A stretch of 64,000 bases of DNA from positions 1 through 64,000 of the forward strand of contig JARLJJ010000327.1 in NCBI GenBank assembly GCA_031291275.1, in the 5' to 3' direction. The position numbers and the translations under genes were made by a program. The notes under the pieces are model-generated. The model saw nothing but the letters and a program-made list of their open reading frames with translations, was not told where the DNA came from and did not search any database. The stretch is from Formivibrio sp. (GTDB lineage: Bacteria; Pseudomonadota; Gammaproteobacteria; Burkholderiales; Chitinibacteraceae). This document shows positions 54,925-58,520 of the stretch, one piece after another; position 1 is the stretch's first letter, and each line of letters begins with the position of its first letter.

Positions 54925-54957
54925 TTTTTAAAAGTATAAAAAAATCGAGGGGTGGGA

Positions 54958-56958
54958 ATGGACGGACAGCCGCAATATATTTTGAAGCGCGACGGGCGTG
55001 TTGTGCCGTTCGATATCAAGAAGATCGCCGCCGCCTTGGTCAAGGCGGGTGCCGCCACCGGCGAGTTCGATGCGGTCAAGGCTGAGCGTCTGGCATTACT
55101 GGTGGTAGAGCAATTGCCGCAAGATATTACCCCGGCCATTGAAACCATCCAGGATGTGGTCGAAGAAACCCTGCTTGGCCTGCACCATATCAAAACCGCT
55201 CGCGCCTATATTGCCTACCGTACCCAGCATACCCGTCTGCGCAATGATATTCGCACGGTCGTCGATGTCGAATCCAGTATCAACGAATACCTCGATCAAT
55301 CCGACTGGCGCGTGAGTGCTAATGCCAACCAGGGCTGGAGCCTGGGCGGCATGATCCTGAATACCTCGGGCAAGGTGATCGCCAACTATTGGCTGAATCA
55401 CGTCTATCCACCAGAAATCGGCAATGCCCACCGCTCTGGCGCAGTGCATATCCATGATCTGGACATGCTCTCAGGTTATTGTGCCGGCTGGTCGCTGCGC
55501 CGCCTGCTGCACGAAGGTTTCAACGGTGTGCCTGGCAAAGTTGAAGCCAAGCCGCCCAAGCATTTTTCTGCTGCCATCGGCCAGATCGTCAATTTCCTTG
55601 GCACCCTGCAGAATGAATGGGCCGGTGCGCAGGCGTTCAGCTCGTTTGATACCTATATGGCGCCATTTATTCGCACGGATAACCTGAAGTTTATCCAAGT
55701 GAAGCAATTCATTCAGGAGTTGATCTACAACCTGAATGTGCCGAGCCGCTGGGGCACGCAGACGCCGTTCACCAACCTGACCTTCGACTGGATCTGCCCG
55801 GAAGACCTGCGCGAGCAGATTCCGTACGTCGGCGGCGAGGAAATGCCGTTCACCTATGCCGATCTGCAGCCAGAAATGGACATGATCAACAAGGCCTATA
55901 TCGAAGTGATGATGGAAGGCGATGCCAAGGGCCGGGTGTTCACCTTCCCGATCCCGACCTACAACATCACCAACGATTTTCCGTGGGAGCACCCGAATAC
56001 CGATCTACTGTTCGAAATGACCGCCAAGTACGGCCTGCCGTATTTCCAGAACTTCCTGAACTCCGATCTGGAGCCGCAGATGGTGCGCTCGATGTGCTGC
56101 CGCCTGCAGCTCGATCTGCGCGAACTCTTGAAGCGCGGCAACGGCCTGTTCGGTTCGGCCGAGCAGACCGGCTCGCTTGGCGTGGTCACGATCAATTGCG
56201 CGCGTATCGGCTTCGAGTTCAAGGGTGATGAAGCCGGCGTATTTGCCCGCATCGACGAGTTGCTCGATCTGGCCAAGCAATCGCTGGAAATCAAGCGCAA
56301 GATCGTCGAGCGCCTGATCAACGCCGGCCTGTATCCGTACACCAAGCGTTATCTGGGCACCCTGCGTAATCACTTCTCCACGATCGGCATCAACGGCGTG
56401 AACGAGATGATCCGCAACTTCACCGGGGATGCCTACGACCTGACCTCATCGGAAGGCCACGCGTTTGCCGTGAAGCTGCTCGACCATATCCGCGCCAAGA
56501 TGACCGAGTTTCAGGAAGAAACCGGCCACCTCTACAATCTGGAAGCAACGCCGGCCGAGGGCACGACCTACCGCTTTGCCAAGGAAGACAAGAAGCGCTA
56601 TCCGACTATCCTGCAGGCCGGCACGCAGGATGCGCCGTACTACACCAACTCCTCGCAACTGCCGGTGGGTTTCAGCGATGATCCGTTCGAGGTGCTGGCG
56701 ATGCAGGAAGAACTGCAACGCAAGTACACCGGCGGCACGGTACAGCACTTGTACATGACCGAAGCGATTTCCAGCGCCAGTGCCTGCAAGCAGTTGGTGA
56801 AGCGTTCGCTGGAGAAATTCCGCCTGCCGTACATCACGATTTCGCCGACGTTCTCGATCTGCCCGAAGCACGGCTATATCTCCGGGCATCATGAGTTCTG
56901 CCCGAAGTGCGATGAAGAGTTGATCTCCAAGGGGCGTCCGGAATCCTGCTGCAACTGA
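54958..56958 (+). CDS. nrdD: Anaerobic ribonucleoside-triphosphate reductase, large chain lacking the glycyl-radical segment
   Basis: A 666-residue class III reductase. An N-terminal ATP-cone (about residues 5-95, YILKRDGRVVPFDIKKI) senses dATP/ATP. The ten-stranded barrel follows, with AVHIHDLDMLSGYCAGWSLR, NVPSRWGTQTPFTNLTFDW and the Cys-containing RSMCCRLQLDLREL. Zinc-type ligands come near the end (ICPKHGY ... EFCPKCDEE). The ORF then ends GRPESCCN, without the R-x-x-G-Y glycyl-radical motif that every class III enzyme needs; that motif is in the separate ORF at 57508-57696. The ATG at 54958 has GAGGGG upstream, preferred over a GTG at 54952. FNR and NrdR boxes precede it. Confidence 0.93.
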   Translation: MDGQPQYILKRDGRVVPFDIKKIAAALVKAGAATGEFDAVKAERLALLVVEQLPQDITPAIETIQDVVEETLLGLHHIKTARAYIAYRTQHTRLRNDIRTVVDVESSINEYLDQSDWRVSANANQGWSLGGMILNTSGKVIANYWLNHVYPPEIGNAHRSGAVHIHDLDMLSGYCAGWSLRRLLHEGFNGVPGKVEAKPPKHFSAAIGQIVNFLGTLQNEWAGAQAFSSFDTYMAPFIRTDNLKFIQVKQFIQELIYNLNVPSRWGTQTPFTNLTFDWICPEDLREQIPYVGGEEMPFTYADLQPEMDMINKAYIEVMMEGDAKGRVFTFPIPTYNITNDFPWEHPNTDLLFEMTAKYGLPYFQNFLNSDLEPQMVRSMCCRLQLDLRELLKRGNGLFGSAEQTGSLGVVTINCARIGFEFKGDEAGVFARIDELLDLAKQSLEIKRKIVERLINAGLYPYTKRYLGTLRNHFSTIGINGVNEMIRNFTGDAYDLTSSEGHAFAVKLLDHIRAKMTEFQEETGHLYNLEATPAEGTTYRFAKEDKKRYPTILQAGTQDAPYYTNSSQLPVGFSDDPFEVLAMQEELQRKYTGGTVQHLYMTEAISSASACKQLVKRSLEKFRLPYITISPTFSICPKHGYISGHHEFCPKCDEELISKGRPESCCN

Positions 56959-56966
56959 TGCTGCAA

Positions 56967-56992
56967 ACCGGGCGGAGAATATCCCGCCCGGT
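56967..56992 (+). terminator. Hairpin immediately after nrdD
   Basis: ACCGGGCGG and CCGCCCGGT pair over an 8-base loop, 8 bp beyond the nrdD stop. No U-tract follows. It may partly terminate, or act as a processing/stability element between nrdD and the downstream genes. Confidence 0.5.
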
Positions 56993-57094
56993 CAATAATG
57001 CCGTTCATACTTAAGTTGAGCCGCTTCATCCGCTGAACATGCCGTCCCGCATCTCTACTAAACGCAGCAGTACCGATCTCACCCTGGAGGAAAC

Positions 57095-57394
57095 ATGATA
57101 CCGAAATTTGGCGAACATCAAGAAGGCTATGGAGCAGAACTCCAGTGTCCCTCTTGTGGCTTCAATTACCTTCACCACGACCGGGTGGAAGTCTTCGAGT
57201 GTGGAGAAGATGCAACCCACGGAGTGCACGTCGCCGTTGCAGACGGCAAGGCTACCTTTGATACCTCGCTTGAGGGCAACCCTAGCGCCCGTCGCCACGG
57301 ACTGAAAGTTTTCTTCTGGTGCGAAGGCTGCGACGCAAAGCCTATACTGACCATCAGCCAACACAAGGGAAACACCTACGTTGATTTCGAGTAG
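57095..57394 (+). CDS. Small Cys-rich (zinc-ribbon-like) protein between the two parts of NrdD
   Basis: A 99-residue protein of unrecognised family with a very good ribosome-binding site (GGAGGAAAC directly before the ATG), so it is probably real. It has CPSC near residue 18, a single Cys near 36 and CEGC near 76, with the CxxC pairs placed as in a rubredoxin/zinc-ribbon knuckle, and a C-terminal beta-rich tail (LTISQHKGNTYVDFE). Its position between nrdD and the glycyl-radical ORF may be chance or may point to a role with the reductase. Confidence 0.72.
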   Translation: MIPKFGEHQEGYGAELQCPSCGFNYLHHDRVEVFECGEDATHGVHVAVADGKATFDTSLEGNPSARRHGLKVFFWCEGCDAKPILTISQHKGNTYVDFE

Positions 57395-57423
57395 GAGCCC
57401 AATCCATCATTCCACTGGAGCTG

Positions 57424-57441
57424 CGCCGGAATGACGGCAAT
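57424..57441 (-). repeat. Remnant of the REP-like repeat seen at 9.0 kb
   Basis: On the minus strand this reads ATTGCCGTCATTCCGGCG, identical to 9001-9018 except one base, and CCAGTG follows a few bases on as in the 9.0 kb copy. The rest of the unit is missing. It is a shortened repeat unit within the nrdD-to-nrdG region. Confidence 0.6.
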
Positions 57442-57507
57442 TTTTTGAGTGAATGGAATTGCCGCCCGTTCAGTAACTTCAAATGAAAACAATTGGAGAG
57501 CCATAAA

Positions 57508-57696
57508 ATGACCGATCTTTCCGTGCAGGACAAATTGCAAACCGCCACCCAGCCGCTGCTGAAAGATGAAGAGCGTACCCGCTGCGAAGTGTGGACCCGC
57601 GTGATGGGTTATCACCGCCCTGTTTCTGCATTCAATATCGGTAAACAAGCCGAATTCCGCGAACGCAAATTCTTTACAGAAGCATGCTGCAAGTAA
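57508..57696 (+). CDS. Free-standing glycyl-radical segment of anaerobic ribonucleotide reductase
   Basis: A 62-residue protein. Residues about 26-55 (RCEVWTRVMGYHRPVS, then FNIGKQAEFRERKFF) match the C-terminal glycyl-radical region of class III reductases, where the Gly of the VMGY loop carries the radical. This is the part missing from the large NrdD chain. GGAGAG lies 8 bp before the ATG at 57508 (the track starts at a TTG 15 bp earlier). It ends EACCK and overlaps the possible nrdG start. Probably it docks in trans on NrdD and is activated by NrdG. Confidence in the domain match is high; trans action is inferred. Confidence 0.85.
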   Translation: MTDLSVQDKLQTATQPLLKDEERTRCEVWTRVMGYHRPVSAFNIGKQAEFRERKFFTEACCK

Positions 57697-58520
57697 ACCC
57701 GGATTCCTCTTCTTGGCCTGATGAGACTGGTACTCCGATGTGTGGCGAGTCCCCTTGTGGGGCGTCGCGATCCACCGCCGCGAGCGCGGAAGAGCGGCCC
57801 GATCTGCACGAAGGCCCCCGTGTTCCCAAGCTCGGGGGTTTTGTGCGCTTTTCCAGTTGCGACTGGCCGGGCAAGCTGGTTTGCGTGGTGTTTATTTCCG
57901 GCTGCCCATGGCGCTGCCATTACTGCCATAACCCGCATCTGCAAACACGCAGCAAAATGCCGGGCGAGCCAGCCTGGGCCGACGTGCTTATTTGGCTGGA
58001 AACGCGGCGCGGCCTGCTCGATGGTGTGGTGATTTGTGGTGGAGAGCCGCTGGCCGAACCGCGTCTGCCGGAAATGCTGGCGCAGGTAAAGGCGATGGGT
58101 TTCGGCGTGGCGCTGCATACCGGCGGCGGCTATCCGAACCGACTGCGCGAGTGCCTGAAGCTGGTCGATTGGATCGGTTTTGATGTCAAGGCCCCGTTTG
58201 CCGAATACCACCGGATTACTCGTGTCAAAGGGAGCGGCGATGCTGCGCGATTGTCATTGCAGGCTGTGGTCGAGAGTGGCGTGGCATTTGAATGCCGGAC
58301 AACGTCTCATCCGGCACTGCTGAGTGATGCCAACCTGCTGGAGATCGGCCATGAATTGGCTGCTGCTGGCGTTAAGCATTATGCCGTACAGAAATTCCGC
58401 CCCCATGGTTGCAACGATGCCGATCTGTTGGCTGTGCCACTTTCATCGAATTACCCCGCTGTGGCGACATTGGACGAACTTCGCCATCTATTCCCTGATT
58501 TTATCTTGCGCCAGTCCTGA
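57684..58520 (+). CDS. nrdG: Anaerobic ribonucleotide reductase-activating protein
   Basis: A radical-SAM activase of up to 278 residues. The iron-sulfur motif is CPWRCHYC (C-x3-C-x2-C), preceded by the typical DWPGKLVCVVFISG, and GGEPL follows. It abstracts hydrogen from the glycine of the reductase to create the radical. The start is uncertain. The ATG at 57684 overlaps the radical-segment ORF, but the first 45-50 residues do not look like NrdG, which normally begins shortly before the VPKLGGFVRFSS stretch; a later ATG (57738) is possible. Confidence 0.88.
   Translation: MLQVNPDSSSWPDETGTPMCGESPCGASRSTAASAEERPDLHEGPRVPKLGGFVRFSSCDWPGKLVCVVFISGCPWRCHYCHNPHLQTRSKMPGEPAWADVLIWLETRRGLLDGVVICGGEPLAEPRLPEMLAQVKAMGFGVALHTGGGYPNRLRECLKLVDWIGFDVKAPFAEYHRITRVKGSGDAARLSLQAVVESGVAFECRTTSHPALLSDANLLEIGHELAAAGVKHYAVQKFRPHGCNDADLLAVPLSSNYPAVATLDELRHLFPDFILRQS

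Follow-up and report, generated by a model that had tools for sequence, protein, structure and literature searches.

A class III ribonucleotide reductase of Formivibrio sp. with its glycyl-radical domain encoded as a separate 62-residue protein

The nrdD-nrdG2 operon of the window

The stretch analysed here (the window) comprises 64,000 nucleotides of Formivibrio sp. (Chitinibacteraceae; GenBank assembly GCA_031291275.1, contig JARLJJ010000327.1, positions 1 to 64,000) and contains an operon for a class III ribonucleotide reductase (RNR), in which a large nrdD gene is followed by a 62-codon gene and by nrdG2 (Table 1). Enzymes of this class require a glycyl radical, made by NrdG, next to the active-site cysteine. 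The first-pass annotation, made from the letters alone, had proposed that this RNR is split and that its glycyl-radical domain forms a protein of its own, a proposal borne out by matches to the family, by conservation, by the gene order of the operon and by purifying selection.

Table 1. Positions of the operon features in the window
Feature	Position	Strand	Evidence or remark
Truncated NrdD open reading frame (ORF)	54958..56958	+	666 codons; PRK08270 1129 bits; Pfam NRDD 2-529/562
ATP-cone (allosteric activity site), large subunit	54976..55233	+	Pfam PF03477, E 2.2e-20
MCCR finger-loop motif, residues 379-382	56092..56103	+	invariant across 53 aligned NrdDs
Zinc-knuckle-like CPKHGY...CPKC	56860..56910	+	last conserved element of large subunit; split immediately 3' of it
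99-residue CxxC hypothetical protein between both nrdD genes	57095..57394	+	strain-specific insertion; absent in relatives L033/L034
Shine-Dalgarno GGAG of small gene	57495..57498	+	9 nt 5' of ATG; sequence
Small gene, 62 residues, stand-alone NrdD-type glycyl-radical domain, ERTRCEVWTRVMGYHRPVSAFNIGKQAEFRERKFF	57508..57696	+	Pfam NRDD 532-562, E 1.4e-8
Codon of Gly34, predicted glycyl-radical residue (RVMGY)	57607..57609	+	RVMGYHRP in 79/79 named relatives
nrdG2, radical S-adenosylmethionine (radical-SAM) activase	57684..58520	+	TIGR02495 NrdG2, 181.5 bits, above cut-off

The large ORF, which has an in-frame GTG upstream at 54952, was matched above cut-off by the NCBIfam profile PRK08270 (profile positions 3-655 of 684) and by TIGR02487 (481 bits), and its match to Pfam NRDD scored 585 bits. 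It ends in CPKHGYISGHHEFCPKCDEELISKGRPESCCN followed by a stop codon, at Pfam position 529 and without an RVxGY motif, so that the C-terminal glycyl-radical loop is not in the NrdD chain, as had been claimed. Cys635, Gly639, Cys648 and Cys651 of the zinc knuckle are invariant in 53 sequences and His638 is almost invariant. The MCCR motif, which has been reported for the subgroup NrdDh4 (PMC4493059), is followed by LFG, and by this motif the window NrdD is a candidate member of NrdDh4. The closest relatives of the large subunit (Formivibrio, Chitinibacteraceae) are 93-96% identical to it. In the fused relative L221 the last zinc-type cysteine and the radical segment are just four residues (GEET) apart, so the split lies at a domain border; both halves have acquired a short tail.

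The small ORF starts with ATG, and its Pfam NRDD match, obtained in the hidden Markov model (HMM) search that the first-pass annotation had suggested, lies above the curated cut-off; jointly the two ORFs span the whole family. A search of the 62-mer against PDB sequences gave no match. The ratio of nonsynonymous to synonymous substitutions (dN/dS) of the small gene is 0.054 against L033 and 0.13 against L034, which indicates purifying selection. The frame of nrdG2 overlaps the 3' end of the small gene, the real nrdG2 start codon possibly lying further in, and the dedicated activase is present in the operon as for class III RNR.

The two nrdD parts are 549 bp apart in the window versus 70 bp in L033 and 77 bp in L034, both close relatives. 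On this comparison, a strain-specific insertion of ~480 bp explains the spacing, which is peculiar to this genome. The CxxC ORF within it is unrelated and no part of the RNR; it has homologues among the hypothetical proteins encoded by plasmids (74.5% in Shewanella algae) and by one Synechococcus phage. The large and small ORFs share one frame in the window, but seven stops intervene.

The same assembly also encodes, on contig C456 (L001), a full-length NrdD of the E. coli-type subfamily PRK09263 along with its partner NrdG; this NrdD/NrdG pair is 74% identical to its counterpart in a same-genus genome (G001), and the genus Formivibrio seems to keep both NrdD types. A full-length nrdD elsewhere beside a decayed copy had been named as grounds for giving up the split: the full-length gene was indeed found, but in another subfamily, and the split copy is not decayed.

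Conservation, prevalence and origin of the split

The 80 best named relatives in the GTDB collection were examined, of which 79 had readable downstream DNA (the 80th, L060, ends too early). All 79 are split, and the small ORF of each keeps RVMGYHRP. The gap between the large and small ORFs has a median of 34 bp (range -50 to +376 bp), the three relative frames occur in 25, 32 and 22 cases, and a Shine-Dalgarno sequence precedes the small gene in 75 of the 79 versus a mean of 12 and a maximum of 19 after shuffling. The pair of nrdD genes is accompanied by nrdG2 in nearly every case. The separate downstream ORF with its own ribosome-binding site, as originally described for the window, is thus a general feature of these relatives. 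Wider samples gave the same picture: class III RNR was present in 56 of 100 genomes of relatives and split in 43 of the 56, with no full-length NrdD in 41 of those 43; nrdD was present in 98 of 299 genomes of the order and split in about 80 of the 98, among the matches listed; and 11 of 47 were split in a sample of the phylum. The split is frequent among Beta- and Gammaproteobacteria, also occurs in some Alphaproteobacteria, Campylobacterota and viruses, and was found on plasmid records of Cupriavidus, Allochromatium, Thiothrix, Azospira, Sulfuricystis, Bradyrhizobium, Paracoccus, Cereibacter and Sulfuricurvum. In public annotation, 'ribonucleoside triphosphate reductase' is the label given to the large part and 'nrdD' the one given to the small part.

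These counts bear on whether the window simply holds a broken nrdD (a frameshift, nonsense or insertion pseudogene) whose work is done by the full-length NrdD and NrdG on C456, a view that the insertion between the parts in this genome would also suit. Its probability is practically negligible: most of the order, and lineages beyond it, have the split as a fixed trait, usually with no second NrdD; it is also present in relatives that lack the insertion; and both ORFs are intact, the small one being under purifying selection. A simple frameshift, already discounted in the first-pass annotation, is excluded by the 549 bp with stops and another ORF between the parts and by relatives in all three frames with their own starts, and a sequencing error is ruled out by more than 100 independent split loci.

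Rejoining of the parts into a single-chain NrdD by a self-splicing intron, trans-splicing, recoding or read-through would agree with the shared frame in the window and in 25 of the 79 relatives, and phage RNR genes often contain introns and inteins (PMC3653736). However, rejoining is extremely improbable. An intron or intein was rejected on a negative Rfam scan of 56700-57800 and on the overlaps or very short gaps between some large-small pairs, and programmed frameshifting or read-through on the random relative frames and on the dedicated Shine-Dalgarno sequence and start codon of the small gene; including the window, gaps run from -50 to +549 bp. Moreover, the peptide gene may lie at a distance, since the radical gene and nrdG were found together ~10 kb away from nrdD in L126 and on a different contig from it in L129/L130, the peptide gene remaining beside nrdG in both cases, and upstream of the large gene in L315. 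Cases that had seemed fused by HMM as a single open frame (for example G004 and G052) resolve into two ORFs, a separate Shine-Dalgarno sequence and ATG belonging to the small one, and five HMM merges across a stop that had seemed recoded (G470, G504, G529, G547 and G607) were each found on checking to be split into two ORFs. As a separate observation, in two 0.9-Mb genomes of the same phylum (L365 from G275 and L366 from G256), one NrdD match contains two in-frame TAA codons, and in the other a split radical peptide adjoins an NrdD match with a TAA.

In trees of the large subunit, all cellular split enzymes of the window type and several viral ones form a single clade (99 and 99/96, both starred), and the main split arose once, with additional splits elsewhere. 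Separate splits are probable in the viral L270 and L315. An independent split is likewise probable in another proteobacterial class (L245:1351-3594), where an E. coli-type NrdD comprises a 682-residue large part and a 60-residue ORF with RRITGYLVG, followed by nrdG. The fused plasmid nrdD of Acidiphilium pACRY03 (L356) and the fused nrdD of Actinomyces oris (L357) are nested in the split clade, the tree placement of Actinomyces not being starred; both are probable re-fusions, which would make the split and fused states interchangeable.

Free-standing copies in viruses and mobile elements

A scan of viral contigs with the peptide yielded 146 relatives, of which 80 were kept (L141-L220). In nearly all of these contigs the radical segment lies in a short ORF and NrdD is absent from the flanks; a whole-record search of 45 contigs (5-108 kb) found no other NRDD match in 44, and 30 of 31 contigs lacked a radical-SAM protein. 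As viral contigs are possibly fragments, the absence of NrdD was judged across many contigs and not from single ones. The viral peptides (61 distinct among 78, mostly 49-90 residues) have the same consensus as the bacterial ones, and RVMGY[HY]RP is present in all 78, the glycine being kept throughout. All five that were tested matched NRDD above cut-off, and PF01228, the Gly_radical family of pyruvate formate-lyase type, was matched neither by these five nor by the window peptide. An additional Cys-rich N-terminal segment precedes the radical domain in eleven copies (L147, L157, L158, L161, L169, L177, L179, L190, L192, L193 and L212), and the L161 peptide aligns with the NRDD end from position 513. 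Among the phage isolates in INPHARED the stand-alone peptide was not found, solely full NrdD or weak matches being returned, and no fused viral relatives were found in a scan with L221 as sole query.

Extra free-standing copies were also found in bacteria with a split nrdD: in a prophage lysis region with Phage_lysozyme and Baseplate_J (L254), beside DnaB, ParA and topoisomerase genes of the kind that integrative elements carry (L251), and at chromosomal sites (L252, L253). Genome G578 holds three radical peptides, one operonic, one mobile-element-like and one chromosomal (L251:8120-8575, L252:9792-10031 and L257). Genomes with only fused NrdD had no extra free-standing copy among the matches listed, although the numbers are small.

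Small autonomous glycyl-radical proteins encoded apart from their enzyme, as the operonic and viral peptides are, have a precedent in YfiD/GrcA and in T4 Y06I (vs.6), a YfiD/GrcA-type protein of that phage, which act in trans (PMC8683613, PMC1524935). Those proteins, however, are of the pyruvate formate-lyase type and repair a complete enzyme, whereas the window and viral peptides match NRDD only. That the peptide is mainly such a spare part for an otherwise complete NrdD, and not an obligatory subunit, would be in line with this precedent, with the published suggestion of spare parts for other glycyl radical enzymes (PMC8683613) and with the extra copies in phages and genomes. It is nevertheless very improbable for the operonic peptide, whose NrdD lacks a built-in radical domain, 41 of the 43 split genomes of relatives having no complete NrdD to repair; unlike YfiD/GrcA, the bacterial peptide appears obligatory. 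The viral copies may have a spare-part role.

We regard it as evenly balanced whether phages and mobile elements carry just the peptide of ~50 residues to run, refresh or take over the host anaerobic RNR, with the radical carrier being exchangeable and mobile. The neighbours of the viral copies in the examples checked (Mu-like portal, minor head, terminase, endolysin, major head, head closure, tail fibre) are structural and lysis genes, not nucleotide-metabolism modules, and the three viral peptides searched match phrog_4132, listed as of 'unknown function'. Both observations would also fit decoys or inhibitors of host NrdD/NrdG, or another role in the virion or in lysis. This second possibility is unlikely, as a decoy needs no glycine and the radical loop is kept in every copy with the bacterial consensus. 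Among viral NrdDs, six (L296, L306, L307, L308, L311 and L316) were seen by eye to have a glutaredoxin-like C-terminal extension past the radical domain. In other viral large NrdD ORFs (L299, L305, L318 and L266) the radical domain is absent, and none is recognisable in the available flanks.

A probable two-polypeptide RNR and its significance

The in-frame read-through of the window (large subunit, a 183-residue artificial linker and small subunit) was modelled using AlphaFold2 with a 53-row alignment, whose fused rows bias the model towards the fused arrangement; an earlier AlphaFold model on a shallow alignment was uninterpretable (predicted local distance difference test (pLDDT) 51.7). The NrdD core has pLDDT values mostly >90, the linker is disordered (~27), and peptide residues 871-910 form two strands and one helix at 83-95. 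The top PDB matches in a fold search were all class III RNRs, the window NrdD aligns to 4coi/4u3e, and its core combines a ten-stranded barrel with a family-level sequence match to class III. The model fits docking of the peptide on NrdD in trans, without proving it, and proximity of the glycine to the cysteine would follow from such docking. NrdDh of T. maritima and N. bacilliformis (MCCR variant NrdDh4) likewise has a barrel, ATP-cone, zinc knuckle, MCCR finger loop and NrdG partner.

The split, its conservation and prevalence, the purifying selection and the free-standing mobile copies were computed directly. We consider it highly probable that the operon encodes a two-polypeptide class III RNR in which the peptide is an obligatory radical subunit acting in trans, activated by NrdG2 and possibly exchangeable; association with NrdD, activation in trans and exchange are what we infer from those results. 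The ATP-cone, the zinc knuckle and the substrate barrel, where the thiyl-forming cysteine lies, would be parts of the 666-residue NrdD, and the peptide, seated in the barrel, would contribute the glycyl-radical loop. NrdG2, from the overlapping frame, would set the radical on Gly34 of the barrel-bound peptide, and, as happens in single-chain NrdD, the glycyl radical would then generate the thiyl radical on the cysteine. In genomes without another NrdD the peptide would be the obligatory radical subunit. Because it has a gene of its own, it could be overproduced, replaced after oxygen cleavage, moved alone or supplied by phages and mobile elements. Exchange is the weakest part of this reading, suggested by the mobile copies and by analogy with GrcA (PMC8683613); the 'replaceable radical subunit' tentatively ventured in the first-pass annotation gains strength from the phages and mobile elements in which the peptide is encoded on its own.

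Plasmid pHG1 of Cupriavidus necator has the identical three-gene layout (large, small, nrdG), its small gene in strain H16 being the 66-codon H16_RS32675, and a genome paper citing earlier work reports its NrdDG as essential for complete denitrification, vitamin B12 (class II RNR) countering the defect of a pHG1-free strain (PMC2864759). Being both split and reportedly essential, the C. necator enzyme must work in its split form. The same paper gives C. metallidurans nrdDG as Rmet_5137 and Rmet_5139; a radical ORF lies 3' of the large gene in the C. metallidurans DNA and is presumably the unmentioned tag between them. Some points count against the two-polypeptide reading. The test of essentiality in C. 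necator, cited through a secondary source, addressed nrdD/nrdG and not the peptide; template modelling scores (TM-scores) of the model to solved NrdDs are only ~0.6-0.75 (target-normalised); and the full-length NrdD of another subfamily in the Formivibrio genome could supply deoxyribonucleoside triphosphates.

A split class III RNR was not described in any paper that the literature searches turned up, although an earlier mention in Siedow 1999 or Wei 2014 is possible, and a split radical domain is not mentioned in the searched passages of NrdD reviews and phylogenies, nor in the parts of the NrdDh literature covered. A close parallel is the class II NrdJa/NrdJb of Pseudomonas aeruginosa, an RNR likewise made from two gene products of one operon (PMC4520616), which is split at the redox tail, whereas the window NrdD is split at the radical carrier; a 2015 paper called split NrdJ the sole split RNR among non-viral organisms. 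The RNR genes of phage Aeh1 (nrdA, still functional), phiAS4 (nrdD) and Lactococcus phage 949 (nrdD) are fragmented too (PMC3653736), but by intron, intein or endonuclease insertions or breaks in single phages, in contrast to a fixed split at a domain border in many genomes. The phage-borne radical peptide is the more novel part of the finding.

Class III RNR has so far been described with the glycine radical in its own chain, and what appears here is a two-piece version shared by a sizeable group of bacteria, among them denitrifiers and the model organism C. necator. Annotation silently records it as two 'ribonucleoside triphosphate reductase' genes, and large subunits alone risk being misread as inactive NrdD in genome surveys. 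Swapping of the glycyl radical between enzyme copies, target recognition by NrdG, and the use of a cheap replaceable part against oxygen damage in facultative anaerobes are now testable. As an auxiliary metabolic gene, the phage copy would be exceptionally small, and it would fit the published idea of spare parts for glycyl radical enzymes beyond pyruvate formate-lyase. If the proposed role is true, the virus would encode a catalytic radical component of an enzyme of its host. In many nitrate-breathing bacteria, to judge from their genomes, the radical of the anaerobic RNR would thus reside on a separate protein of ~60 residues that appears to be an exchangeable subunit.

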